This document shows positions 25,429-40,009 of a stretch of DNA of 64,000 nucleotides, piece after piece. Source of the DNA: Gillisia hiemivivida (GTDB lineage Bacteria; Bacteroidota; Bacteroidia; Flavobacteriales; Flavobacteriaceae). The position numbers were made by a program, and so were the translations under genes. How positions within the stretch are numbered: position 1 is the stretch's first letter; each line of letters begins with the position of its first letter. The stretch spans positions 372,001 through 436,000 of the forward strand of contig NZ_VORY01000001.1 of the NCBI RefSeq assembly GCF_007997295.1, given 5' to 3'. A model generated the notes under the pieces. It made no database searches, was not told where the DNA came from, and saw only the letters and a program-made list of their open reading frames with translations.

Positions 25429-27609
25429 TTAAGCTGTAACACCTTCTTCAAGACCAGCTTCGATCAGCTTTTCTGGAGTGATAGGTAGGCTTCGCATTCG
25501 TTTTCCGGTTGCATTAAATATGGCATTTGATATGGAAGCAGCTACACTGGTTATTCCAAGTTCACCAATTCCTTTTATACCCATTTTATTGGCGATCTTA
25601 TCTTCTTCCGGAAGGAAGATCACCTCAATATTGGCCAAATCCAGATTTACTGGTACGTGATAATCTGCAAAAGAACGGGTGATAAAATTTCCAAAATTAG
25701 GTTCTACCCTAGTCTGTTCAGCCATCACCATGCCTACACCCATTGTTAAACCTCCTATGATCTGCCCGTAAGCGGTTTTTGGATTTAATATCTTTCCTGC
25801 TGAAGCTACATTCACCATTCTCTTAATTCGGTACATTCCCGTATCCTTATCAACCCAAACTTCAGAAAAGTTAGCTCCAAAAGAGAATACTGAGTATTTT
25901 CCGAATTCCGCAGATGGTTCAGCTATTCCCTCAGCTTCGAATTTGGTTAGTTGATTCTTTTTTAGAAGTTCAGAAACAGCAACTTCTTTATCTTCTGCTA
26001 TATTTCTATTATTCTTAAGTGTTTTTATAGCATTTTCACAAGCAGCGCGGGCTCCATTACAAAAAGAAGCTGCTCCCCAAGAACCTCCAGAGCCAGGTGT
26101 TATGGGGAAATCGGAATCACCTAATTCTACATTTACTTGTTCTACCGGGATCTTTAAATATTCTGAAGCGGTTTGTGCGATAATAGTATAACTACCAGTA
26201 CCTATGTCGGTTGCATCCATTTGAATAGTAGCAAAAACTTTATCTTCGTCCAATTCCAGAATTACTTTCGAATGCGTTTTCAGATATGGAGAATTTCTGG
26301 AGGCGGAACTTACACCGTAACCTATAAGCCAATTACCTTTTTTATTAGTACGTGGTTCTGATTTTCGGTCTTTCCAGCCAAATTTTTCAGCGCCAATTCT
26401 CAAACATTCCACCAATAAGCGGGAAGAAAACGGTCGGTTCTCATGAAGATCTGTTTGAGTATCGTTTTTTATGCGGAATTCTAAAGGATCCATTTTTAAC
26501 TTCCATGCCATTTCATCCATAGCAGATTCCAATGCAAAGCTTCCCGTTGCTTCTCCAGGTGCTCTCATAGCAAACGGAGTTTGAATATTCATCGGGATCA
26601 ACTTATAGGTTACCTCATTATTGGCCACATTGTACAACATCTTGGACACCATTCCGCAAGGTTCCTGATATTCCTGAGTAGTGGAAGTATGTGAAAGCGT
26701 TTCATGAGAAAGCGCTGTGAGCGTACCATCTTTTTTAGCACCTACACGCATTTTTTGCTCGTTCTGTTGACGCATGTTCGTATTGGTAAACATTTGGGTT
26801 CTAGTTACAGTAACCTGCACGGGTCTTCCAACCATTTTAGATGCCATTACCGCCAAAATCACATGTTGATCTAGGTTTAGTTTTGAGCCAAATCCACCAC
26901 CTACAAAAGCAGATATTACACGCACATCTTTCTTTGGAATCTGGAATGTACCTGAGATAGCTATTTTAGCATCTTCAACTATTTGCTGACTTGAATATGC
27001 AGTCACTTTTCCATTATCCCAGGAAGCGATTACGGCATGCAATTCCATTGGATGGTGATGTTCAATTGGTGTATTATAGGTCTGCTCCACTACCATATCA
27101 GCTTCAGAAAACCCTTGCTCCATATTTCCTCTTGAATAATTTGAACCATTATCTGGAGTATAGGCTTTGGATTTCGACTTCTCAAAGTCGATAACTGCAG
27201 TGGGATCTTTTTTATATTCAAACTTTACTAAGCTAGCAGCATATTGTGCTTGTTCGAATGTCTCTGCCACCACAAGACCAACATATTCCCCATAATAATG
27301 CACTTTATTACTTTGCAATACTGGCGCAATACTATCTGTGGCAATTTCTGGCCTTACTCCTTCTAAAGTCTTAAGCTTTTCTGCATTCTTATAAGTAATC
27401 ACTTTTAAGACACCTTCAAGCTTTTCAGCTTCAGAAGTATCTATAGAAACAATCTCACCTTTGGCGATCGTAGAGTTGATTCCTTGTCCATAAACTTTAT
27501 TTTCTACTGGAAATTCAGATGCATATTTAGCCTTTCCCATCACCTTTAGATGACCTTCCACTCTATTTATAGCATTTCCAACTCCGGATGTATTTATTGA
27601 CTTCGTCAT
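25429..27609 (-). CDS. Molybdopterin subunit of a PaoABC-type aldehyde oxidoreductase
   Basis: This is a molybdenum-binding subunit of about 726 residues. The longest frame begins at 27648 and would overlap the FAD gene. I prefer ATG 27609, because it gives the expected start (MTKSINTSGVGNAINRVEGH) and length of the YagR/PaoC family. Blocks: FVGGGFGSKLNLDQHVILAV (cofactor loop), FAMRAPGEATGSFALESAMDE, the domain with GSGGSWGAASFCNGA, and the terminal GIKGIGELGITSVAASISNA with catalytic Glu of GxGE. It has no signal peptide of its own; export would be led by the Tat signal on the 2Fe-2S subunit. E. coli PaoABC oxidises aromatic aldehydes in the periplasm; the substrate here is unproved. The XdhC needed for maturation is encoded in the same locus. 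Confidence 0.9.
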   Translation of the reverse strand: MTKSINTSGVGNAINRVEGHLKVMGKAKYASEFPVENKVYGQGINSTIAKGEIVSIDTSEAEKLEGVLKVITYKNAEKLKTLEGVRPEIATDSIAPVLQSNKVHYYGEYVGLVVAETFEQAQYAASLVKFEYKKDPTAVIDFEKSKSKAYTPDNGSNYSRGNMEQGFSEADMVVEQTYNTPIEHHHPMELHAVIASWDNGKVTAYSSQQIVEDAKIAISGTFQIPKKDVRVISAFVGGGFGSKLNLDQHVILAVMASKMVGRPVQVTVTRTQMFTNTNMRQQNEQKMRVGAKKDGTLTALSHETLSHTSTTQEYQEPCGMVSKMLYNVANNEVTYKLIPMNIQTPFAMRAPGEATGSFALESAMDEMAWKLKMDPLEFRIKNDTQTDLHENRPFSSRLLVECLRIGAEKFGWKDRKSEPRTNKKGNWLIGYGVSSASRNSPYLKTHSKVILELDEDKVFATIQMDATDIGTGSYTIIAQTASEYLKIPVEQVNVELGDSDFPITPGSGGSWGAASFCNGARAACENAIKTLKNNRNIAEDKEVAVSELLKKNQLTKFEAEGIAEPSAEFGKYSVFSFGANFSEVWVDKDTGMYRIKRMVNVASAGKILNPKTAYGQIIGGLTMGVGMVMAEQTRVEPNFGNFITRSFADYHVPVNLDLANIEVIFLPEEDKIANKMGIKGIGELGITSVAASISNAIFNATGKRMRSLPITPEKLIEAGLEEGVTA

Positions 27610-27631
27610 AATTTTGTTTTTTGAGATTGGC

Positions 27632-28618
27632 TTATACTTTTCTTTCATATGCCTGGGTAAGCGCTCTTACAATTGCGTTTTTACCCATATCTACTTTCCA
27701 TTTATTCGCTTCAAATGGTTTAGCATCCTTCATCTCCAATGCTGCAGCCGCTTCAAAATTAGATTGATTTGGTTTCTTCCCTACAAGGAATTCTTCAGCT
27801 TTTGTAAGCTTCCATGGGATATGAGCAACTCCGCCCATGGCAAGTCCAACCTTGTTGATCACTCCGCTTTCGACTTGTAATCCGGCAGCAACCGATAGCA
27901 ATGCAAAAGCATAACTGGAACGTTCGCGTATCTTTAAGTAGTAATAATGATCTGAAAATTCTGGTTTTGGTAAATGAATCGCCGTGATCAATTCACCTGG
28001 CATAAGAGTAGTATCTTTTTCAGGCTGATCTCCCGGCAAACGATGAAGATCTGTGAATTCTATCATTCTGGAGGTCCCGTCAGGTTTTTGAACTTCAACA
28101 GTTGCTCCAATGGCCGCAAGAGCCACACACATATCTGATGGATTTGTTGCAATACAGCTATCACTATATCCAAAGATCGCATGTAAAGCATTCATTCCAT
28201 TCAAGGCTCCGCATCCTGAACCTGGTTCTCTCTTATTACATGGCATAGAAACTTCAAAGAAATAAGGACAACGTGTGCGCTGCAACAAATTTCCTCCATT
28301 GCTAGCCATATTCCTTATCTGTGCTGTGGCAGCAGATAACATAGCCATGGATAGTAAGGGGTAATTGGTTCTTACTTCCTTATTATTGGCAGTTTCAGAA
28401 TTACTAAGCATTCCGCCAAGTGTTAATCCGCCATTTTCATTAGAAGTTATTTTCTTATAATCGAGATTAGTAACATCGATAAGTTGATCTGGCCGCTCCA
28501 CATTTTCTTTCATCAAATCCATCAGATTTGTCCCACCCCCGAGATAATGCGAAGTTGCTGTGAAAGCTTGAAGCGCCTGTTCTTTATTTTTTGCACTGGT
28601 ATATGTGAATGGTCTCAT
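27632..28618 (-). CDS. FAD (and 4Fe-4S) subunit of the PaoABC-type aldehyde oxidoreductase
   Basis: This 328-residue CO-dehydrogenase-flavoprotein-type subunit has the FAD phosphate loop HYLGGGTNLMDLMKENVERP near the N-terminus and MASNGGNLLQRTRCPYFF. The region between (RCPYFFEVSMPCNKREPGSG then CGALNG ... SDSC) adds extra Cys, as in E. coli PaoB/YagS, where a [4Fe-4S] cluster sits near the flavin. That trait separates this enzyme from ordinary xanthine dehydrogenase FAD subunits. The gene lies 22 bases before the molybdenum subunit start and 64 bases after the 2Fe-2S gene. Confidence 0.92.
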   Translation of the reverse strand: MRPFTYTSAKNKEQALQAFTATSHYLGGGTNLMDLMKENVERPDQLIDVTNLDYKKITSNENGGLTLGGMLSNSETANNKEVRTNYPLLSMAMLSAATAQIRNMASNGGNLLQRTRCPYFFEVSMPCNKREPGSGCGALNGMNALHAIFGYSDSCIATNPSDMCVALAAIGATVEVQKPDGTSRMIEFTDLHRLPGDQPEKDTTLMPGELITAIHLPKPEFSDHYYYLKIRERSSYAFALLSVAAGLQVESGVINKVGLAMGGVAHIPWKLTKAEEFLVGKKPNQSNFEAAAALEMKDAKPFEANKWKVDMGKNAIVRALTQAYERKV

Positions 28619-28682
28619 GGTTGATTAATTTTAAAGTCTTGAAATGTTCAAATTCATTGGTTTTAAGGATAATCTTACCTGT

Positions 28683-29483
28683 TTAGGCATTCTTAGCCTT
28701 ATCCATTTGTTCCTGTGTAGCAAATTCCCAAGTTGGCATTTCATCATTCCCGGTATGGACTTCTTTAAAGGCCTGTACAATATTATTGTAAGCACCGCAT
28801 CGACAAATATTTCCAGACATTCTTTCTCTAATTTCTTCTTCTGAAAGTGTCAAACCAGATTGAATTTTCTTAAGATCTTCTGTTACATAGCTAGCTTCTC
28901 CATTTTTGGCTTCTTCTAATAGTGCTACAGAAGAACATATTTGTCCGGGAGTACAATAACCACATTGGAAGCCATCATGTTTTAGGAATGCCTGTTGCAT
29001 TGGATGCATTTCGCCATTTTTCGCTAATCCTTCTACCGTTGTGATCTCTTTTCCTTCACATGTAGCTGCAAGCGTAAGGCAAGAAAGATTGCGTTTTCCC
29101 TCTATAATTACAGTGCAGGCGCCACATTGTCCATGATCACAGCCTTTTTTTGTGCCGGTTAGTCCAAGTCTTTCTCTAAGTGCATCAAGCAAAGAAGTTC
29201 GGGAGTCTAATGTTAATGGCTTAACCATATCATTCACCCTAAGATTCACTTTAACCTCATTTAAAAGTGCTGTTGTTTTCTCTGGCAAATCTTTCATAGT
29301 GCTGGCAAATAATTCTGAAGTAAAAAAAGAAGAAGCATAAATACTCAAGCTTGCTGCGGAAACTTGTTTTAAGAATTTTCTTCTTGAACTTCCATTAAGT
29401 CCCATAGCATCGAGAATCATATTCTCGTCATCACTCAAATTATCTGGATCTACAGCTTCATTCCACTTATCTATATCTTTCAT
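28683..29483 (-). CDS. Tat-exported 2Fe-2S subunit of the PaoABC-type aldehyde oxidoreductase
   Basis: This is a protein of about 266 residues. I place the start at ATG 29483, as the ATG at 29489 adds only two residues. Unlike most small subunits it has an N-terminal region of about 70 residues with a twin-arginine signal (SSRRKFLKQVSAASLSIYAS), like PaoA/YagT. Cluster motifs: KGCDHGQCGACTVIIEG and CLTL, then QCGYCTPGQICSS and GNICRCGAYNNIV. Between the two sits a 30-residue insertion (AKNGEASYVTEDLKKIQSGL). It is first in its operon, 370 bases from the divergent macroglobulin gene. The Tat signal should carry the folded three-subunit complex to the periplasm. Confidence 0.92.
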   Translation of the reverse strand: MKDIDKWNEAVDPDNLSDDENMILDAMGLNGSSRRKFLKQVSAASLSIYASSFFTSELFASTMKDLPEKTTALLNEVKVNLRVNDMVKPLTLDSRTSLLDALRERLGLTGTKKGCDHGQCGACTVIIEGKRNLSCLTLAATCEGKEITTVEGLAKNGEMHPMQQAFLKHDGFQCGYCTPGQICSSVALLEEAKNGEASYVTEDLKKIQSGLTLSEEEIRERMSGNICRCGAYNNIVQAFKEVHTGNDEMPTWEFATQEQMDKAKNA

Positions 29484-29489
29484 AAACAA

Positions 29490-29858: not shown

Positions 29859-32800
29859 ATGAATAAATTTCTAACGGGAATTATCTTCCTATTCTCCTTT
29901 TTATCCTTTTCTCAGCAAACAGAATATAATAAACTATGGGAGAAAATAGATTCTTTAGAGATCATTGGTAAAACTGATTCTGCGAATGAGTTCACTAAAG
30001 AACTTATAGTGGTTGCAGCAAATAATAAGGAATATTCTAATTTATTGAAAGGTAAATTATTCCATTATAAATTTCATCAGATCAATCATGAAGATTCTAA
30101 CCAATACATTTTAAATGATCTGAACACATGGATTTCAAAAGTGCCCTCTCCTTATAAAAATATTCTTAGAAGTTATAAGGCAGATTTTATAATGGATTAT
30201 TATAGACAAAACCGATGGAAATTAAAAAACCGAAGTAAGATTGATAATCCAAAAGAGAATGAATTGGAAACGTGGTCTATGGAAACACTTCACGATACTA
30301 TTAAAAACACTTTTGAAAGATCATTGGTAGAAAAAGAAGTGCTTATAGCCACATCAAATTCTGAGATTTCACTTTTATTGGATTCTAACTTATTAACTAG
30401 AAAATATCATCCTAGTGTTTATGATCTTTTAGTAAGTCGATTGATAGAATTTTACTCAGAATCCAGTTTTTTTACTAATGAATTTGCGAAGGTTGAATTC
30501 AACTGGGGGAATCCAAAATTATTTTCCACTTCTTTGGAGTTCTCAGCCATTAGTATTCTGGAAATAGAGTCTTCGGAAATAAAAACTTTAAAATTATACC
30601 AGCAAATAGAACGTCTTCATTTGCAAGATAAAGACCCACAATCCTTGGTTTATTGGACGATTGAAAGATTGAAATTTCTGAAGAATAAGTTAGATAAAGA
30701 GAAAAGTGATATTCTTTATCTAAATGCTCTAAAGGAGCTTTCTAAAAATTATAAAAATAAAGATGTTGAAGCAGTTATCTTATACGAGATTGCTTACCAT
30801 TATTATAGCCGTTCCGATACAAGCACAAATACAAATATAAATAGAAAAGCAGCACTGTTATATCCAAATTACCTTAAGAACGCGATTGATATTATTGATC
30901 ATTTAATTGCCAATTTCCCTAACACCTCTAGTGCCCAGAACGCAGTAAGTCTTAAGTCTACTATTAAAGCTCCAGTGTTAAATTCTAAAGTACCATCATA
31001 CCTAGCTGTAAATGAACCTGGGCGAATATTCATTTCTTTCAAGAACATAGATACTCTTAATTATAAAATCATTCAGGTTACTAAAAACTTTTCTTCAAGT
31101 TTAAGTTATAAAACAAGAGATTCCAATATTAAATCTTTAGCAGAAAAACACAAGGCAAGTACTCAAATAGTATTACCTGGCCTAAAAGATTATAATTTAC
31201 ATTCTACCGAAATCGCTTTTCAGGGTAAAGATCCGGGGACTTACTTGGTCTATTTGTCCACATTTGATAACTACTATAGTTACGGTTTCTTTCAGGTAAG
31301 TAATATTGCGGTCTCTAAACTCGAATTTAATACGAAGAGTATTTTTCATGCAGTTGATCGAAAATCAGGGAAAAATCTGAAAAATGTCAAGTTTGATTTA
31401 TATGGAAAAGAAAAGTTGATTCTTACTGAAAAAACGGATTCCAATGGAGTGCTTACTATAAAAAATACAGGTTCTGGATATCGCAATTCTTCAATGAGAT
31501 TCTCATATAAAGAAGACACCCTAATAACTAATTATAATCGCGGATATTATAGAAGAAGTAACACAGAACAACCGTTAATATCAAAAACCATGATATATCT
31601 GGATCGATCTATATATAGACCAGGACAGACGGTATTTTTTAAAGGTGTTTTACTGGAACATGAAAATGACAGTACGCGAACGGTTCCAAATGAATATGTA
31701 CCTGTTTACGTTGATGATCCTAATGGTGAGGAGATAGCAGATTTCCGTTTAAAGACAAACAAATATGGCTCCTTTACGGGTAGTTTCAAACTGCCAAAAG
31801 ATGGTATTACTGGCGAGTTTAGTATTTATACTGAAAAGGATTCAGAATCTGAAACTCCGTTTTGGAATAAAATATATGATGATGGCGAATTCTATGAAAA
31901 TCATACAGTTTTTAACGTTGAAGAATATAAGAGACCTACATTTAAAATTGCATTTGATACAATAAAAGATAGTTTCAAGCTTAAAGATTCTGTAAGCATA
32001 AGTGGAACCGTAAAATCTTTTATGGGAGCTAAAATCTCTGATGCTAAGGTGAAATTTGAAGTTAAGAGAGAACGATTTATAAATTCTTGGTGGTATAGAT
32101 ATTACGAGAATGCCGTAGTCATATATCGGGATTCGGTGAAAACAGATAAAGATGGAAATTTCAGGATAAGTTTTATCGCTGAAGCTGAAGAAAGTAATAT
32201 TCTAAATCCTGATCTCATATATAGGTATACGGTTGATGCTTCTGCAACAGATATTACGGGAGAGACAAGAAGTGAATCTAAAGAGATTAGGATTGGTAAT
32301 AAAAACTTAGTTGCTAATTTACAACTTCAGGAAAATGTAGTTTCAGGTGACACCCTTAAAATAACAGCAAAAACCAACAATCTAAATGACAATTTAGTCC
32401 CTGTAAATGGTGTATTGAAAATATTCAAATTAAAGTCTCCCAACAGAATACTACAAAATCGTTTATGGGAGGCTCCAGAGTTCAACCTGATTTCTGAAGA
32501 AGAGTTTATAAAATTATTTCCAGAAGAACCTTATAAGGACGGATTGCCTCCAGAGGAATGGCCAAAATCTCAGATTCTTTTTCAGGTTTCTTTCGATAGC
32601 GATGGAATATTTGAGGAAACAATCCCTGTACAAAACAACTGGGAAGAGGGGAAATATTTAGTTGAATTGGAAGTAGAGAATAATAACAATATTACTATCT
32701 CCAAAAAGATTTTTGCAGTAAACAAAAAAGAAAATAATAATGCAGCAAATAAAGAAAGACTTCTAGTTAAGCTTCAGAATAAGGACATACGTGAAGATGG

Positions 32801-35800
32801 ATTTGCCAATTTACTTATAAAAACAGCTTATAAAGATTTAAATTTACAAGTTTCAGCTTTTAATGGTAATTCGGTGATCTTTAATGAATTTTTGAAGATA
32901 GATGGAAGCCGAGAAGTTAAGATTCCGGTTGGGGTTATTCTGGCTCCCGAAATAAGAATATTGGTCTCTGGTGTGAAGAATAATGCAGTTATTGAAGAAA
33001 CTATTGATATACCATTAGAGAATAAAATAAACTCACTGAGCATAACCACAAAAACGTTTCGGAATAAAATTAAACCTGGACTGGATGAAACTTGGAGCTT
33101 CGATATCAAAAACGAATTAAATGAAATTCCAGATGCCGAAATTCTAGCATCTATGTACGATGTTTCATTAGATCAATTCAAAATCGGAACATGGGAAACC
33201 AATCCAAATTTCTCATTTTATAGATCCGATTTCCCAAATTATCAAAATACTAGTGTTGGAGACATTTCACAGTTAACCTCCAATATTAGATCTGCTTGGA
33301 GATATAGACCACAAAAACTATTTTTTGATAAGCTTGATGATTTTGGGTTTTATTTTGGAAGGCCTAATTCCTATAATTACCGCTACTATATTCAAAGGAA
33401 GAAAATCGAAAATGACAAGCCTGTATTAGAAGGTAATTTAAGAGGAAGGATAATAGATGAACAGGGAATGATCCTTCCCGGTGTGAACATAATCATTAAA
33501 GATAGCAGAGCAGAAACCCAGACAAATTTCAATGGGGAGTTTGCGTTAAATGTAAATATTGGAGATGTTTTAACGATTTCAATCATAGGTTACACTACTT
33601 TTGAATACAAGGTTTTAAACAGAGACAATGTCTATTTAATGTTAGAAGAAGATTCTTCAGCATTAGATGAGGTCGTGGTTATAGGTTACGGAATCGTAGC
33701 AGATGAGGAAGCTTTAGTGGAAACTGATATTTCTTCGGTATTGCAAGGAAAAGTTGCTGGAGTTGAGATAAAAAATAACAGGATTATGATTCGGGGAGAA
33801 TCAAGCCTTAAAGATGGTAAGACTCCACTTTTTATAGTAGATGGAAAGCAAGTCGAGGAATATAATCTCAATTCTGGAGATATCTTAAATATAGAAATTT
33901 TAAAAGCCGAAACTGCTGTTGCTATTTATGGTACTGCAGCTTCTAATGGCGCAGTTATTATTACCACAAAAAAAGGCCTTGCTGAACTTGGTGAAGTTGA
34001 AGCCAGAAAAAATCTTGATGAAACAGCATTCTTCTTTCCCAATTTGATATTGGGAGAAGACGGTAACCTAGAATTCAGTTTTACTTCTCCAGAAGCTTTA
34101 ACCAGTTGGAAGTTTCGTCTTTTAGCACATACTAAAAACTGGTCTACTGGAAAACTTCAAAAGAACGTTATTACCCAAAAGGAACTAAACGTTATTCCAA
34201 ATCCACCTAGATTTCTGAGAGAGGGCGATAGCATAGTTTTTAAAGCGAAAGTAAGCAACCTTTCCTCGGAGAGCATGACAGGTAATGCGATCTTAAAACT
34301 TTTTAATGCTGTTACTATGGAACCTATAGATTCAATAATGGGTAATATAGATAATTTAAAAATCTTTAAGATGGGTGCTTCTCAAAGTCATGCTGTTTCT
34401 TGGAAATTATTTGTGCCGGAAGATATTCCGGCAGTCACCTACCGAATTCTTGCGAAGGCTGGAAATTTTTCAGATGGAGAAGAGAATTTATTACCAGTCT
34501 TAAAAAACCGGATGTTGGTAAAAGAAAGTATCCCGTTTTTTGTTAGAGCCGGAGAGAAGAAAGATTATTTCTTTGAAAGTCTTTTAGATAATAAATCTGA
34601 GAGTCTTCAGAACCACAAATTTACAATTACTTATAGCTCAAATCCGGCTTGGTATGCCATACAAAGTCTACCATACTTAATGGAATATGAGCATGAATGT
34701 TCGGAGCAGATATTTTCCCGAATTTTCGCTAATAGCCTTGGTAGTAAGATTGTGAATTCACAGCCAAAAATTGCAGATGTGTTTCGGGAATGGGAAAAGG
34801 ATAGTTCTTTGGTTAGTAATTTGGATAAAAATGAAGAACTTAAATCCATCTTATTAGCAGAAACTCCTTGGGTAAGAGATGCGGAATCTGAAACTGCACA
34901 AAAAAAGCAGGTGGCTAACCTATTCAAGATTCAAAAACTGGAAAGAGAAAATAATGAAAGTATGTCTAAGCTATTGAGAATGCAAAATTCATCTGGTGCA
35001 TTTCCATGGTTTTCAGGAGGAAGAGATAGTTATTTTATTACTCGACATATCGTAGAGGGCTTTGGTCGGCTTCAGAAATTAGGTGTTGATACTAATGCAT
35101 CTACAGTTCTTGCGAATTCAATACGATATTTAGATAATGAATTTTTGAACGCTAAGACAAATAGACAAATGTTTAAATCTGAAGAAAGTTTTCGCAAAAG
35201 TAATTATAGCCTTTACTACTTATATGCCCGAAGCTACCACTTAAAGGCATATCCATTATCTAAAGAATTAGTACTATTAGCCAATGAAGTTATTGAAGTT
35301 CAAAAGGAAAATTGGATTCAGAAGAGTCTCTATAATAAAGGGATTTTATCTTATACTTTAAATCAATTTGGACACAAAGATGTTGCAGCAGAAATATTAA
35401 ATTCCTTAAAAGAGACTGCGGTGTACTCTGAAAATTATGGTATGTATTGGAAAGAAAATCAAGCTACTTGGTTTTATAATAGAACTCCTGTTGAAACCCA
35501 GGCACTATTAATTGAAGCTTTTAGTGATGTGTTAAATGACCAAAGCGCTGTTGAAGAAATGAAGGTTTGGTTATTACAAAATAAAAGAACCAATCATTGG
35601 GCTACGACTAAATCTACCACAGCTGCCAGTTATGCGTTATTAATGAAAGGTGGAGATTGGCTAAGTGTTTCTGATAATACAGAGATTAAACTTGGTGGTG
35701 AGAAAATTGATCCTATGAAATTGGAAGAAATTAAAAAGGAAGCGGGCACGGGATATTTAAAAATTAACTGGAAAGGAGAGGAGATAGTTGAAGATTTTGG

Positions 35801-36314
35801 AAAAATAACAATTGAAAATAATAATACTACGGCAGGGTATGGAGGAGCCTATTGGCAATATTTTGAAAACCTTGATAAGATTAATGATCATACCGAGAGT
35901 CCTTTAAATATAGAAAAGGAACTTTATTTAAATAATCCGGGTGATGTACTTCAGCAAATAAGTGAAACAACACCAATAAAATTAGGAGATTTAATTACCA
36001 TTAGATTAATAGTGAGAACTACTTCAGATATGGAATTTATTCATTTAAAAGATATGCGGGCAAGCGGGTTTGAACCTACCGATGTTTTAAGTGAGTATAA
36101 GTCGCAAGACAATACATATTACTATCAAAGCACAAGAGATGCTGCAACTCACTTTTTCTTCGATAATTTAAGAAAAGGCACGTACGTATTGGAATATACT
36201 GTTAGAGCAAATAATATTGGAAGCTTCTCTAATGGTATCACTCTTATTGAGAGTATGTATGCACCAGAATTTTCGGGACACACTCAGGGAATTAGCGTTA
36301 AAATAAAAGAATAA
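29859..36314 (+). CDS. Giant alpha-2-macroglobulin-like protein with inserted CarboxypepD_reg and TonB-plug module
   Basis: This is a 2151-residue exported protein with a signal peptide at 1-18 (FLSFSQ). Residues about 19-370 are helical. Macroglobulin (MG) domains follow, including an MG2 region with TMIYLDRSIYRPGQTVFFKG near 580. At 1192-1373 a CarboxypepD_reg-like beta sandwich (GRIIDEQGMILPGVNIIIKD) is followed by DEVVVIGYG and a SusC-like plug domain (LQGKVAGVEI ... IRGESSL ... PLFIVDGK ... IYGTAASNGAVIITTKKG). Directly afterwards the A2M domain starts (ARKNLDETAFFFPNLI, about 1381). So the insert sits where eukaryotic proteins carry the bait region. The thioester motif CSEQ is at Cys1614-Gln1617, followed by the alpha-helical toroid and C-terminal beta domains. 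No barrel follows the plug. Likely role: protease trapping or envelope defence in the periplasm or at the surface (inferred). Single gene, terminator after it. Confidence 0.88.
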   Translation: MNKFLTGIIFLFSFLSFSQQTEYNKLWEKIDSLEIIGKTDSANEFTKELIVVAANNKEYSNLLKGKLFHYKFHQINHEDSNQYILNDLNTWISKVPSPYKNILRSYKADFIMDYYRQNRWKLKNRSKIDNPKENELETWSMETLHDTIKNTFERSLVEKEVLIATSNSEISLLLDSNLLTRKYHPSVYDLLVSRLIEFYSESSFFTNEFAKVEFNWGNPKLFSTSLEFSAISILEIESSEIKTLKLYQQIERLHLQDKDPQSLVYWTIERLKFLKNKLDKEKSDILYLNALKELSKNYKNKDVEAVILYEIAYHYYSRSDTSTNTNINRKAALLYPNYLKNAIDIIDHLIANFPNTSSAQNAVSLKSTIKAPVLNSKVPSYLAVNEPGRIFISFKNIDTLNYKIIQVTKNFSSSLSYKTRDSNIKSLAEKHKASTQIVLPGLKDYNLHSTEIAFQGKDPGTYLVYLSTFDNYYSYGFFQVSNIAVSKLEFNTKSIFHAVDRKSGKNLKNVKFDLYGKEKLILTEKTDSNGVLTIKNTGSGYRNSSMRFSYKEDTLITNYNRGYYRRSNTEQPLISKTMIYLDRSIYRPGQTVFFKGVLLEHENDSTRTVPNEYVPVYVDDPNGEEIADFRLKTNKYGSFTGSFKLPKDGITGEFSIYTEKDSESETPFWNKIYDDGEFYENHTVFNVEEYKRPTFKIAFDTIKDSFKLKDSVSISGTVKSFMGAKISDAKVKFEVKRERFINSWWYRYYENAVVIYRDSVKTDKDGNFRISFIAEAEESNILNPDLIYRYTVDASATDITGETRSESKEIRIGNKNLVANLQLQENVVSGDTLKITAKTNNLNDNLVPVNGVLKIFKLKSPNRILQNRLWEAPEFNLISEEEFIKLFPEEPYKDGLPPEEWPKSQILFQVSFDSDGIFEETIPVQNNWEEGKYLVELEVENNNNITISKKIFAVNKKENNNAANKERLLVKLQNKDIREDGFANLLIKTAYKDLNLQVSAFNGNSVIFNEFLKIDGSREVKIPVGVILAPEIRILVSGVKNNAVIEETIDIPLENKINSLSITTKTFRNKIKPGLDETWSFDIKNELNEIPDAEILASMYDVSLDQFKIGTWETNPNFSFYRSDFPNYQNTSVGDISQLTSNIRSAWRYRPQKLFFDKLDDFGFYFGRPNSYNYRYYIQRKKIENDKPVLEGNLRGRIIDEQGMILPGVNIIIKDSRAETQTNFNGEFALNVNIGDVLTISIIGYTTFEYKVLNRDNVYLMLEEDSSALDEVVVIGYGIVADEEALVETDISSVLQGKVAGVEIKNNRIMIRGESSLKDGKTPLFIVDGKQVEEYNLNSGDILNIEILKAETAVAIYGTAASNGAVIITTKKGLAELGEVEARKNLDETAFFFPNLILGEDGNLEFSFTSPEALTSWKFRLLAHTKNWSTGKLQKNVITQKELNVIPNPPRFLREGDSIVFKAKVSNLSSESMTGNAILKLFNAVTMEPIDSIMGNIDNLKIFKMGASQSHAVSWKLFVPEDIPAVTYRILAKAGNFSDGEENLLPVLKNRMLVKESIPFFVRAGEKKDYFFESLLDNKSESLQNHKFTITYSSNPAWYAIQSLPYLMEYEHECSEQIFSRIFANSLGSKIVNSQPKIADVFREWEKDSSLVSNLDKNEELKSILLAETPWVRDAESETAQKKQVANLFKIQKLERENNESMSKLLRMQNSSGAFPWFSGGRDSYFITRHIVEGFGRLQKLGVDTNASTVLANSIRYLDNEFLNAKTNRQMFKSEESFRKSNYSLYYLYARSYHLKAYPLSKELVLLANEVIEVQKENWIQKSLYNKGILSYTLNQFGHKDVAAEILNSLKETAVYSENYGMYWKENQATWFYNRTPVETQALLIEAFSDVLNDQSAVEEMKVWLLQNKRTNHWATTKSTTAASYALLMKGGDWLSVSDNTEIKLGGEKIDPMKLEEIKKEAGTGYLKINWKGEEIVEDFGKITIENNNTTAGYGGAYWQYFENLDKINDHTESPLNIEKELYLNNPGDVLQQISETTPIKLGDLITIRLIVRTTSDMEFIHLKDMRASGFEPTDVLSEYKSQDNTYYYQSTRDAATHFFFDNLRKGTYVLEYTVRANNIGSFSNGITLIESMYAPEFSGHTQGISVKIKE

Positions 36315-36505: not shown

Positions 36506-36513
36506 TAAATTTG
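36506..36513 (+). promoter_or_regulatory. Candidate -7 element TAAATTTG for prs
   Basis: TAAATTTG matches the Bacteroidota -7 consensus TAnnTTTG and lies 48 bases before ATG 36562. No good TTTG -33 partner is visible at the usual spacing, so the call is tentative. Confidence 0.4.
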
Positions 36514-36561
36514 GGGCACACAACAAAAACCACAGTTTTCAACTTAAAAACATACCACGAA

Positions 36562-37503
36562 ATGCCAAATTTAATTCCCGAAGCAAAAATTTTTAATTGC
36601 ACCCAAAGTAGAGAACTTGCAGAAAAAATAGCTGCAGCCTACGGAGCACCACTGGGAAAAGTTATAACCAGTACTTATAGCGATGGAGAGTTTCAGCCTT
36701 CTTTCGAAGAATCTGTTAGGGGTTCTCGTGTGTTCATTATTGGCTCAACACATCCTGGAGCAGATCACCTTATGGAAATGTTATTGATGTTGGATGCAGC
36801 AAAAAGAGCTTCAGCAAGACATATTACAGCGGTGATGCCTTATTTTGGATGGGCTAGACAGGATAGAAAAGATAAACCTAGAGTTCCTATTGCTGCAAAA
36901 ATGGTAGCGAGTATCCTAGAGACTGCCGGAGCCACTAGGATTATAACAATGGATCTTCACGCAGATCAAATTCAGGGATTCTTTGAAAAACCAGTAGATC
37001 ATTTATTTGCTTCTACAGTTTTCTTGCCTTATTTAAGGAGTTTAAATTTAGATAATCTAACTATAGCTTCTCCAGACATGGGTGGTTCCAAAAGAGCCTA
37101 TGCCTATTCTAAAGCTATGGAAAGCGATGTGGTGATTTGTTATAAACAACGTGCTAAAGCCAATGTAATATCCCATATGGAACTTATTGGCGACGTAACT
37201 GGTAAGAATGTGGTTTTGGTAGATGATATGGTAGATACTGCTGGTACACTTACCAAAGCAGCAGATGTAATGATGGCAAAAGGCGCTATTAGTGTAAGAG
37301 CTATTTGTACACATCCGGTACTTTCCGGAGATGCATATAAGAGAATTGAAAACTCACAACTATTGGAGTTAATTGTAACCGATTCTATCCCTTTAAAACA
37401 AAAATGCGATAAAATTAGAGTAGTAAGCTGTGCTGATCTTTTTGCTGATGTTATGTCTCGCGTACACAACAATAAATCTATCAGCTCTAAATTTATAATG
37501 TAA
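36562..37503 (+). CDS. prs: Ribose-phosphate pyrophosphokinase
   Basis: This 313-residue enzyme makes PRPP from ribose 5-phosphate and ATP for nucleotide, His and Trp synthesis. I choose ATG 36562 over an in-frame TTG at 36511, because family members begin just before the first strand (EAKIFNCTQSRELAEKIAAA) and a candidate promoter overlaps the TTG. Motifs: the YSDGEFQPSF strand, PYFGWARQDRKDKPR (ATP flexible loop), TMDLHADQIQGFF and the PRPP-binding loop VVLVDDMVDTAGT. It is followed after 111 bases by rplY. The prs-rplY-pth order is widely conserved in bacteria and confirms the calls. Confidence 0.97.
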   Translation: MPNLIPEAKIFNCTQSRELAEKIAAAYGAPLGKVITSTYSDGEFQPSFEESVRGSRVFIIGSTHPGADHLMEMLLMLDAAKRASARHITAVMPYFGWARQDRKDKPRVPIAAKMVASILETAGATRIITMDLHADQIQGFFEKPVDHLFASTVFLPYLRSLNLDNLTIASPDMGGSKRAYAYSKAMESDVVICYKQRAKANVISHMELIGDVTGKNVVLVDDMVDTAGTLTKAADVMMAKGAISVRAICTHPVLSGDAYKRIENSQLLELIVTDSIPLKQKCDKIRVVSCADLFADVMSRVHNNKSISSKFIM

Positions 37504-37614
37504 TCTTATTTTTAGCTAAAACACTTAATAAAGCAAAAGACGTTTAATTATTTCCATTTCAGTATTTTATACTACCGAAAAAAGTCGCACCTTTGCACAC
37601 TAAAATTTTTTATA

Positions 37615-38253
37615 ATGAAATCAATCACGATCAACGGATCTAAAAGAGAAAGCGTAGGCAAGAAAGAAACTAAAGCCTTACGTAATGCTGGACAGGTACC
37701 TTGCGTAGTATACGGAGGAGGCGAACCATTACATTTTTCAGCAGATGAAACTGCCTTCAAACCCCTTGTATACACAGCAGATGTGCATACAGTGATAATT
37801 ACTTTGGAAGGTGGAGAGAAAATTGACGCTGTTCTTCAGGACATCCAATTTCACCCAGTAACCGATGCTATCCTACACATGGATTTCTATCAAATATTTG
37901 ACGACAAGGAAATCACTATGCAAATTCCTGTACACACTAAAGGTGTGCCACGTGGAGTTAAAAATGGTGGGGTTTTACGTTACAACTTGCGTCGTTTAAG
38001 AGTAAAAGGTCTTCCAGGAAATCTTCCGGATTTTGTTGAAGCCAATGTGACCCCTCTTAAGATTGGAAACAAATTGTATGTAACTGCTTTAGCAAGTGAT
38101 AATTTTATAATTCAACATCCAGAAAATACTGTGGTTTGTCAAGTTAAGACATCTCGTAATATTACTGCTGAACTTGATGAGGAAGAAGATGAAGTTGCTG
38201 CAGATGAGGTAGAATCTACTCAGGTAGATGATGCTGCTGCTGTAAAAGAGTAA
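37615..38253 (+). CDS. rplY: 50S ribosomal protein L25 (long Ctc form)
   Basis: This 212-residue protein is the long form with an N-terminal 5S-rRNA-binding L25 domain ([30 protein letters not shown], about 1-95) and a C-terminal TL5 beta domain (about 97-185). It ends in an acidic tail rich in Glu, Asp and Val. Its place between prs and pth is the usual one. A -7-like CACCTTTG at about 37589 just before it suggests its own promoter. A strong terminator lies 27 bases after the stop. Confidence 0.95.
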
Positions 38254-38280
38254 TCTTTCATATATAGCACAAAATTTAAA

Positions 38281-38322
38281 AGCATTCCTATTCCGATTAT
38301 TTCGGGATTCGGAATGCTTTTT
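38281..38322 (+). terminator. Terminator after rplY
   Basis: A long stem AGCATTCC/GGAATGCT, with further pairing inside (TTCCGA/TCGGGA), ends in a T run. It separates rplY from pth. Confidence 0.8.
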
Positions 38323-38435
38323 TATTTATAAATAGTTTTATACGCGTTATATTATTTCTGATGCTATTAAAAGTGTCATCTAAAATTGGTAAGGCTAAGA
38401 ATATTATTAATTTTATATTTACCAAAACAAATTCC

Positions 38436-39062
38436 ATGTTGGCATTCTTCGGAAGAATATTTAGCAAAAAACCATCAGAGGAACAAGTAGACCCTATGAA
38501 GAAATTTTTGATTGCTGGGCTTGGAAATATAGGTCCCAAGTACCACAATACCAGACATAATATTGGTTTTAAAGTGGTAGATTACTTAGCCGAAAAAGAG
38601 GGGGTTTCCTTTGCAACCGATAAGCTTGGAGATATTGCAAGCTTCAGATTTAAGGGGAGAACCTTTATTCTACTAAAACCTAGCACTTATATGAATCTTA
38701 GTGGGAAAGCGGTAAACTATTGGCTTACCAAGGAAAAAATCCCTTTGGAGAATTTGCTGGTAGTAACAGATGATCTTAATCTTAATTTTGGAGCTATTCG
38801 GGTTAAGACCAAAGGAAGTGATGGCGGACATAATGGATTAAAGGATATTCAACTTCAGCTAAACACAACTACTTATAATAGATTTAGGTTTGGGATAAGC
38901 GATGAGTTTTCTAAAGGGCGTCAGGTAGATTATGTTTTGGGAGATTGGTCTTCAGAAGAAGAAAAAAATCTTCCCGAACGCTTAGAAAAAGCTGCTGAAC
39001 TTATAAAATCCTTTGCAACTGCAGGAATAAATATCACAATGAATACTTTTAACGGTAAATAA
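38436..39062 (+). CDS. pth: Peptidyl-tRNA hydrolase
   Basis: This enzyme of about 208 residues frees tRNA from stalled peptidyl-tRNA. The catalytic core begins [20 protein letters not shown] (the His in TRHN is catalytic), with [11 protein letters not shown] and [20 protein letters not shown] then HNGL. The frame is open upstream to 38361. I pick ATG 38436, which gives a 20-residue lead ([17 protein letters not shown]) of the kind seen in Flavobacteriia; the core Met at 38496 is an alternative. Eight bases later a TTG starts ribF. Cytoplasmic monomer. Confidence 0.93.
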
Positions 39063-39070
39063 AAAGTCAC

Positions 39071-40009
39071 TTGAAAGAACATCTAGGAGCATATACTTTT
39101 AAAAGTGAATACCCAACGGTAATAACCATTGGCACTTTCGATGGGGTGCATGCTGGCCATCAAAAGATTATAGAAAAGCTGGTAAATACAGCGAAGATCA
39201 GCAATATGGAATCGGCGATTCTTACCTTCTTTCCACATCCAAGGATGGTATTGCAAAAGGAAAGCGATATTAAACTCATCAATACCATAGACGAGCGTAA
39301 AAAGCTTCTTTCCGATTCTGGGATAGATCATCTTATTATTCATCCGTTCACCCATCAATTTTCCAGACTTACAGCACAAGAATTTGTACGCGATATTCTT
39401 GTAAATAAACTGAATGCCAAAAAGATCATTATTGGCTATGATCATAGATTTGGAAGAAATAGAACTGCAGATATCAATACCTTAAAGGAATTTGGGAAGG
39501 AATATGACTTTGAGGTAGAGGAAATTGGTAAACAAGAGATAGAAGATGTCGCAGTAAGTTCTACAAAAATCAGAAAATCCCTGATGGAAGGGAATGTAGA
39601 ACAAGCGAATCGCTATCTTAAACAACCCTTTATGCTAACAGGAATTGTGGTAAAAGGAAAAGGACTGGGAAAAGATTTTGGATACCCGACGGCTAATTTA
39701 AAAATTGAAGAAAATTATAAATTGATTCCGAAAAACGGGGTTTATATAGCACGTGCAGTAATAGATGAAATTCCATATTTTGGAATGATGAATATTGGAA
39801 CCAATCCTACAGTGGGTGGCACAGAGCAAACTATAGAGACCTATTTTTTTATGTTGGATAAGGATCTTTACGGACAAAAGTTGGAAATCGAGTTGCTTAC
39901 CAGAATTCGAGATGAAAAGAGTTTCGATTCTATAGAATCTTTAAAAAGAGCGATGAAACAAGATGAAGCTTTTAGTTCGCAGTTTATCAAAGACAACTAT
40001 GCTGAATAG
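39071..40009 (+). CDS. ribF: Bifunctional riboflavin kinase / FAD synthetase
   Basis: This 312-residue protein has two enzymes. The N-terminal FAD synthetase (nucleotidyltransferase fold) contains VITIGTFDGVHAGHQKIIEK and HDRFGR-like YDHRFGRNRTADI, then VSSTKIRKSLMEGNVEQANR. The C-terminal riboflavin kinase has GKGLGKDFGYPTANLKI and NGVYIARAVID and MMNIGTNPTVGG. The start is TTG at 39071; no ATG lies close enough to preserve the first strand, so a non-ATG start is needed. The next gene starts 11 bases before this stop, indicating coupling. It supplies FMN and FAD, including for the flavin subunit of the molybdenum hydroxylase nearby. Confidence 0.95.
   Translation: MKEHLGAYTFKSEYPTVITIGTFDGVHAGHQKIIEKLVNTAKISNMESAILTFFPHPRMVLQKESDIKLINTIDERKKLLSDSGIDHLIIHPFTHQFSRLTAQEFVRDILVNKLNAKKIIIGYDHRFGRNRTADINTLKEFGKEYDFEVEEIGKQEIEDVAVSSTKIRKSLMEGNVEQANRYLKQPFMLTGIVVKGKGLGKDFGYPTANLKIEENYKLIPKNGVYIARAVIDEIPYFGMMNIGTNPTVGGTEQTIETYFFMLDKDLYGQKLEIELLTRIRDEKSFDSIESLKRAMKQDEAFSSQFIKDNYAE

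Follow-up and report, generated by a model that had tools for sequence, protein, structure and literature searches.

Envelope-protein pieces as possible integrated decoys in the bait region of an alpha-2-macroglobulin from Gillisia hiemivivida and its relatives

Introduction

In human alpha-2-macroglobulin (A2M), the alpha'NT segment (E729-F735) lies directly after the bait region and threads a channel, and bait cleavage releases this segment and triggers a conformational change, according to passages of PMC9352918. The same passages report that human A2M tolerates a glycine-serine bait and works once cut sites are restored. In the SusC/RagA transporter Bt1763, the TonB box is VDEVVV, as tested by deletion and alanine replacement (PMC7782687, in part). 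In this study, a stretch of 64,000 nucleotides from Gillisia hiemivivida (NZ_VORY01000001.1, positions 372,001 to 436,000), hereafter the window, was analysed. A single open reading frame (ORF) at 29859-36314 (+) encodes an A2M family protein of 2151 aa, and its bait contains a SusC-type module composed of an N-terminal extension (NTE), a TonB box, and a plug.

In plants, some immune receptors bear integrated decoys: these defence proteins carry a copy of an attack target. The bait pieces of envelope proteins may likewise serve as integrated decoys in the A2M protease trap; this reading is adopted tentatively and given somewhat less than an even chance. It was chosen because of the position at the trigger, the envelope-derived content, the absence of the SusC barrel, and the fast replacement of the bait. 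The domain order and position, the family-wide SusC, LptD, GldN, GldJ, and OmpA/YfbK pieces, and the fast bait replacement are all read from sequence.

SusC-type module at the bait position

The bait comprises 273 aa between ASMYDVSLDQFK (last residue 1108) and ARKNLDETAFFFP (first residue 1382). This is the place of an A2M bait, between MG6 and the alpha'NT segment, the latter being assigned by eye: ARKNL appears to be the counterpart of the human segment. MG2, PF00207, and bMG10 were present in A2M order, each above its Pfam gathering score. The NCBIfam SusC/RagA model TIGR04056 matched residues 1194-1385 at positions 3-218 of 981 (1.1e-46), a score that, for lack of the barrel, falls short of the whole-protein cut-off. 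The NTE, TonB box, and plug of a SusC/RagA transporter were all found in the module; the 22-stranded outer-membrane barrel was not, the TIGR04056 match ending at position 218. Plug PF07715 was absent at E<=1 from the whole-protein Pfam scan and passed the gathering score when the piece was scanned alone (1.2e-6, 29.4 vs 23.9 bits). The closest solved structure to the module was the SusC homolog 8aa4 (4.5e-21 over residues 1194-1385), and only SusC-type chains were among the matches listed by a PDB-sequence profile search with alignment A1. A preliminary description of this DNA had placed a SusC-type module at the bait position, the A2M PF00207 region directly behind it, and an intact thioester motif further on. 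All three were confirmed, and the hidden Markov model scan that it proposed found A2M and CarbopepD_reg_2, with Plug passing only for the isolated piece. The features, all on the + strand, are as follows.

29859..36314, +, A2M family protein (2151-aa ORF and Pfam)
29859..29915, +, signal-peptide-like N-terminus without lipobox (by reading)
31590..31850, +, MG2 domain, residues 578-664 (Pfam 1.9e-19)
32901..33164, +, weak match to the bait-region domain A2M_BRD (MG5/MG6), residues 1015-1102 (Pfam 0.045, sub-threshold)
33183..34001, +, bait region with SusC-type module, residues 1109-1381 (bounded by ASMYDVSLDQFK and ARKNLDETAFFFP)
33441..33680, +, NTE or CarboxypepD_reg-like domain, residues 1195-1274 (Pfam CarbopepD_reg_2 8e-15; confident model fold)
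33663..33692, +, TonB box LDEVVVIGYG, residues 1269-1278 (motif; low-confidence and flexible in the model)
33720..33977, +, plug-like domain up to ITTKKG, residues 1368-1373 (confident model fold; barrel absent after it)
33879-33971, +, SusC signature TIGR04057, residues 1341-1371 (NCBIfam, below cut-off)
34002..34040, +, alpha'NT-like segment ARKNLDETAFFFP, residues 1382-1394 (equated by eye with human A2M)
34023..34283, +, A2M PF00207 region, residues 1389-1475 (Pfam 5.3e-14)
34698..34709, +, thioester motif CSEQ, residues 1614-1617 (motif by sequence)
35904..36269, +, bMG10 domain, residues 2016-2137 (Pfam 3e-32)

An AlphaFold model of residues 902-1612 was made with 70 sequences (mean pLDDT 77.7, pTM 0.54). 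MG strands flanked the bait, the start of which (model residues 210-267) was disordered. The NTE and plug were predicted with confidence, and a low-confidence linker (367-386) covered part of the TonB box. At this pTM, the place of the module relative to MG6/MG7 is fixed by chain order only, so the structure prediction suggested in the preliminary description bore out the folds rather than the placement. Within the first 36 Foldseek matches of the model (E 1e-14 to 1e-10) were TEP1r, C5, A2ML1, and the A2M of Salmonella and of E. coli. The TM-scores by query were low (0.17-0.32), as would be expected of a model whose several domains are loosely placed.

A relative from a Christiangramia metagenome-assembled genome (L164) matched the window protein at 65% in the best segment and 52% over residues 902-1612. 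Its bait had all five SusC motifs defined below in SusC order. The same arrangement in L164 and other relatives ruled out a chimeric misassembly of the ORF, a possibility raised in the preliminary description.

SusC pieces in the baits of relatives

The C-terminal 776 aa were used as query, and matches were counted at E<=0.001. Matches were found in 81/149 genomes of the family, 117/395 of the phylum, 56/150 of one genus, and 98/98 of genus g156, which we take to be Chryseobacterium-like; some of the weak matches belong to a second A2M family. In several g156 genomes, more than one A2M gene was found (two or three), and some of these genes were separated by a few kilobases on the same contig (for example in G758, G743, and G773). 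From the family and phylum matches and 42 named loci, 197 ORFs were obtained, and their baits were cut at alignment columns. Exclusion of L162 and L163 (second family), L197 (no bait), and L070 and L198 (identical baits) left 192 distinct baits. A larger set of 241 distinct baits was made by adding two further genera (L308-L364), among which four had no clear bait boundary and four duplicates (L346, L353, L355, and L362) were taken out.

Motif profiles were built from 28 SusC plugs in five blocks: T (TonB box and following residues), K (ALQGRAAGVQV), R (IRIRG), V (PLYVVDG), and S (signature). The threshold of 1% was derived from two backgrounds: shuffles, and 870 segments of matching length cut from the same proteins. 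At least one motif was found in 105 of the 192 baits. Block T occurred in 74/192 baits against 5/870 control segments, K in 57/192 against 2/870, R in 40/192 against 10/870, V in 30/192 against 7/870, and S in 31/192 against 10/870. Strict patterns gave a similar picture for EVVVxG (54/192 baits, shuffle mean 0.9, 5/564 control segments), KVAG (38/192, 0.4, 1/564), and YGxxGxNG (22/192, 0, 0/564). The strict RG pattern was not enriched (14/192 baits; shuffle mean 6.4, maximum 16). The survey of 192 baits ruled out a one-off insertion in the window protein.

The SusC order T-K-R-V-S was broken in 18/192 baits, with a T match after K or R. A script had flagged 20 baits, and L019 and L044 were removed by reading (earlier match in the NTE); some of the remaining 18 are weaker, such as L020 and L023. 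Clear arrangements were R-K-T in L014, K-T in L102, K-R-T in L146, and K-T followed by the plug remainder in L159. Simple decay of one ancestral module is insufficient to explain these 18 baits. A model of L102, a short reordered bait, had block-mean pLDDT of 27-54 over residues 241-370, and this bait is predicted to be mostly disordered and to have no plug fold.

The 192 baits were compared with 30 SusC sequences by BLAST at E<=0.01. The N-terminal module was matched in 88 baits, and no bait matched the SusC barrel after ten barrel-flagged matches were reassigned by reading. Five of these were to L222, in which the plug extends to about residue 359, and five to L210, in which the plug-end motif was not found and the matches were judged by the bait stretch matched. 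As a detectability control, stretches of 25, 40, 60, and 100 aa drawn at random from the barrel were searched for in other SusC sequences, and 149, 182, 192, and 198 of 200 trials gave a match.

These results bear on an alternative in which the bait accepts nearly any exported sequence, so that fragments of common envelope genes recombine in and drift. SusC would then be foremost owing to its many copies per genome, and the pieces would have no decoy role. The first-look candidates of TIGR04056 numbered 16 to 139 per genome across 80 genomes, and a featureless bait is tolerated by human A2M (PMC9352918, in the passages cited above). However, barrel pieces are absent although the barrel makes up most of SusC and is detectable, and such capture is considered unlikely. 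With one bait per genome, a motif was found in 1/6 genomes without SusC against 45/74 others, a weak comparison confounded by kinship; the single case is L060, whose piece comes from a different receptor class.

Pieces of other envelope proteins

In the set of 241 baits, at E<=0.001, SusC was matched by 111, LptD by 11, GldN by 8, OmpA and YfbK by the same 4, and any source by 125; nine baits had more than one source, and the controls gave 0/698. At E<=0.01, SusC was matched by 120 and any source by 134, with 7/698 for controls. All sources found are envelope proteins.

Several matches were located in the genome of the bait itself. The L344 bait (g156) matched a 496-aa ORF (69% over 39 aa), an OmpA with TSP_3 by Pfam, and a 315-aa ORF (62% over 39 aa), two relatives of which are GldN. 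In the L345 bait, 29/34 residues were identical to GldN of the same genome. A 572-aa query from L066 was run against six genomes, and it returned six orthologs and ORFs of 1551-1864 aa matching outside the bait, which probably belong to the second A2M family. An ORF of 924-929 aa in four of the genomes matched the bait only (E 1.2e-5 to 2.5e-3), and the two that were scanned were both LptD (PF19838). The matched stretch (residues 148-259) lies almost entirely ahead of the LptD_2 domain, and we infer that it is a periplasmic part of LptD. Different parts of LptD occurred in different lineages. GldJ was found by NCBIfam in two additional baits, L021 (1e-9) and L101 (2.3e-4), again as different parts.

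By E-values, six of 80 genomes appeared to have no SusC over the cut-off. The L060 bait, from one of these six, carried the start of another TonB-receptor class, for which its own genome had a match of 50% over 37 aa. The baits of L117 and of L162 from the second family read like L060 by eye. This second A2M family is shorter, and its baits were viewed in two sequences; that of L162 had, by eye, an NTE-like stretch and the start of another TonB-receptor class.

A Pfam scan of 109 source-less baits (two of them duplicates) gave one CarboxypepD_reg match, the other matches being weak or of that fold. The baits of L159, L169, and L181 have a common PLWWLNPLDY/H-like stretch, and those of L126, L167, and L189 a common GEMFVxGExxKK-like stretch; no source of either stretch was found.

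The preliminary description had suggested a tether to a receptor partner as one possible role of the module. Relatives carry shortened or reordered SusC pieces or pieces of LptD, GldN, GldJ, and OmpA/YfbK, so the module is no isolated oddity. This variety of sources disfavours a tether to one receptor partner and favours a wider relation of the bait to the envelope proteins of the cell.

A more general docking role is conceivable, in which the pieces bind the partners of their source proteins (TonB, the type IX secretion system (T9SS) ring, and peptidoglycan or lipopolysaccharide-transport partners) and thereby position A2M; in a variant, TonB pulls on the bait. The window protein retains an intact TonB box, located in a linker that is flexible in the model; the commonest motif is T (74/192), and the same motif is the tested TonB box of Bt1763 (PMC7782687, in part). 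Against docking, 118/192 baits had no T match, sources with different partners substitute for each other, the copied pieces have no special conservation, and the reordered pieces formed no plug fold in the single model made (L102). Docking and its pulling variant are both regarded as quite improbable.

Evolution of the bait

The bait changes quickly between close relatives. In 68/121 pairs with flanks 90-99.5% identical, the baits were <50% identical (62 genes; the pairs overlap). The ratio of nonsynonymous to synonymous substitution rates (dN/dS) in 46 pairs sharing no gene was 0.32 for the bait and 0.07 for the flank, with dS near saturation in many pairs. An initial reading, special conservation of the SusC motifs, found no support in dN/dS.

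In a tree of plug pieces, most A2M modules grouped together, with 4 label changes against 20.9 on shuffling. L075 grouped with two SusC sequences with strong support. The sequences suggest that A2M has mostly held the intact module for a long time, that pieces have also been reshuffled or lost, and that a module has probably been recaptured at least once.

The capture of arbitrary exported fragments agrees with the lack of special conservation in copied pieces, with the fast replacement of baits, and with the presence of SusC modules inside DUF4139 proteins. It fits poorly with a bait dN/dS well below 1 (0.32, 46 pairs), though dS is often near saturation, and with the recurrence of low-copy LptD and GldJ at different parts.

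The same data can be read as self-tolerance, where borrowed stretches of resident envelope proteins survive the resident periplasmic proteases and are cut by foreign ones. Such stretches would have undergone this selection beforehand and so be safe as bait, and which envelope protein donates would have no further meaning. The sources found are envelope proteins, and constraint is spread across the bait (pieces 0.28, remainder 0.25, flank 0.07), as expected under such tolerance. However, a small number of proteins recur, with different LptD and GldJ parts in different lineages, unlike a draw from all exported proteins, and the TonB-box linker is not an obviously resistant stretch. Self-tolerance is rated as improbable, to about the same degree as the capture of arbitrary fragments.

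Localization and gene neighbourhood

The window A2M is probably located in the periplasm, because its N-terminus looks like a standard signal peptide and shows no lipobox. The periplasm is the side faced by the NTE, TonB box, and plug of SusC. A lipobox-like pattern was found in 8/132 relatives, namely those whose start could be placed by a simple script. By reading, the upstream neighbours (25429-29489, -) are a xanthine-dehydrogenase-type set, and the downstream neighbours (36511-40009, +) are prs-, L25-, peptidyl-tRNA-hydrolase-, and ribF-like genes. No SusC- or TonB-like gene was seen in the translations of these neighbours.

Proposed mechanism

In the integrated-decoy reading, the protein would be an exported A2M-type protease trap, with bait pieces similar to envelope proteins that face the periplasm in the same bacteria. 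A hypothetical protease in the periplasm, which would otherwise attack exposed parts of the envelope machines, would cut the bait instead. Cleavage would free the alpha'NT segment, A2M would collapse, and the protease would be held, covalently where the thioester exists; elsewhere, non-covalent trapping would be needed. A trap that samples vulnerable sites of its own cell would be tuned to relevant attackers, and such sampling could account for the fast replacement. The recurrent bait content is unlikely to serve A2M folding, since the bait sequence is dispensable for folding. The bait interpretation of the preliminary description was kept in part: its bait position and decoy idea agree with the anatomy and with what the relatives show, and the plug is only one state of a fast-changing bait.

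In a wider form, the bait of Bacteroidota macroglobulins would sample self: different lineages would refill this slot with pieces of their own periplasm-exposed envelope machines. The slot would draw on SusC and other TonB receptors, LptD, GldN, GldJ, and the OmpA/YfbK linker, and the trap would thereby mirror the parts that a protease would attack. This wider form is slightly more doubtful than the decoy role itself.

Several results weigh against these proposals. The dN/dS of copied pieces was 0.28 and that of the remaining bait 0.25 (40 pairs, few gaps). A single origin of intact plug modules was not rejected (p-AU 0.09; 0.31 without L075) in a test that left out seven long or gappy rows, on a tree with no DUF4139 modules, since all of these fell to the length filter; repeated copying from SusC is therefore unproven by the tree. 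The own-clade match of the TonB-box block was flat for f1 (15/31) and 4/6 for f2, and of the testable GldN/LptD pieces 4/8 had their best match in their own genome. The LptD, GldN, and OmpA counts are not blind, because these sequences were added to the comparison after the first matches. No source was found at E<=0.01 for 107/241 baits, and one such bait (L349), searched against its own and four related genomes, matched A2M relatives only, the rest being at E>=0.13. Within a 120-aa stretch, C-x-E-Q was present in 155/192 orthologs and not found in 37/192, including all 8 f2 members.

SusC pieces outside A2M count on the same side. A full SusC NTE, TonB box, and plug was found inside the DUF4139 domain of three DUF4139/DUF4140 proteins (L304:568-2652 (+), L281:886-2997 (-), and L292:862-3027 (-)), and a VWA protein contained a plug piece. 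To our knowledge, DUF4139 and VWA proteins are not known inhibitors. The VWA protein (L272:79-2469 (-)) has a T9SS sorting tail, a membrane segment (by reading), and the SusC plug piece before its VWA domain. A YfbK-like VWA protein (L373:1051-3126 (+)) has a linker with TSP3 repeats and then a TonB-box-like ESVVVTGSQKK; linker mosaics may extend beyond A2M, since this linker combines the two.

Comparison with known systems

No report of an A2M bait containing a plug or a sequence derived from self was among the matches listed in the open-access literature, the scope of which leaves out preprints and most subscription papers. If the decoy reading is true, the bait sequence would be a readable list of self parts needing guarding, an instance of self-mimicry by a defence protein in bacteria, and a bacterial periplasmic counterpart of integrated-decoy immunity. 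Even under neutral capture, a slot acquiring SusC, LptD, and gliding-protein fragments would be an unexplained genome process.

The window protein is like human A2M, E. coli ECAM, and Salmonella A2M in its MG domains, bait position, alpha'NT-like segment, thioester motif, and C-terminal MG10. The bait of human A2M has 39 residues (PMC9352918, same passages), whereas that of the window protein has 273 aa with NTE, TonB box, and plug. In complement C3, C4, and C5, the anaphylatoxin is likewise a folded domain that replaces the bait before alpha'NT (PMC9352918, in part). Unlike the anaphylatoxin, the domain in the window protein is a homolog of the N-terminal part of a transporter, and it varies among close relatives. 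The NTE, TonB box, and plug follow each other as in the SusC/RagA transporters Bt1763 and RagA; unlike in these, there is no barrel, the module is inside an A2M, and relatives keep pieces only, some of them reordered. If the inference holds, the bait would resemble the integrated decoys of plants in placing a copy of the attack target in a defence protein, with the difference that it would be bacterial and periplasmic and belong to a protease trap rather than a signalling receptor.

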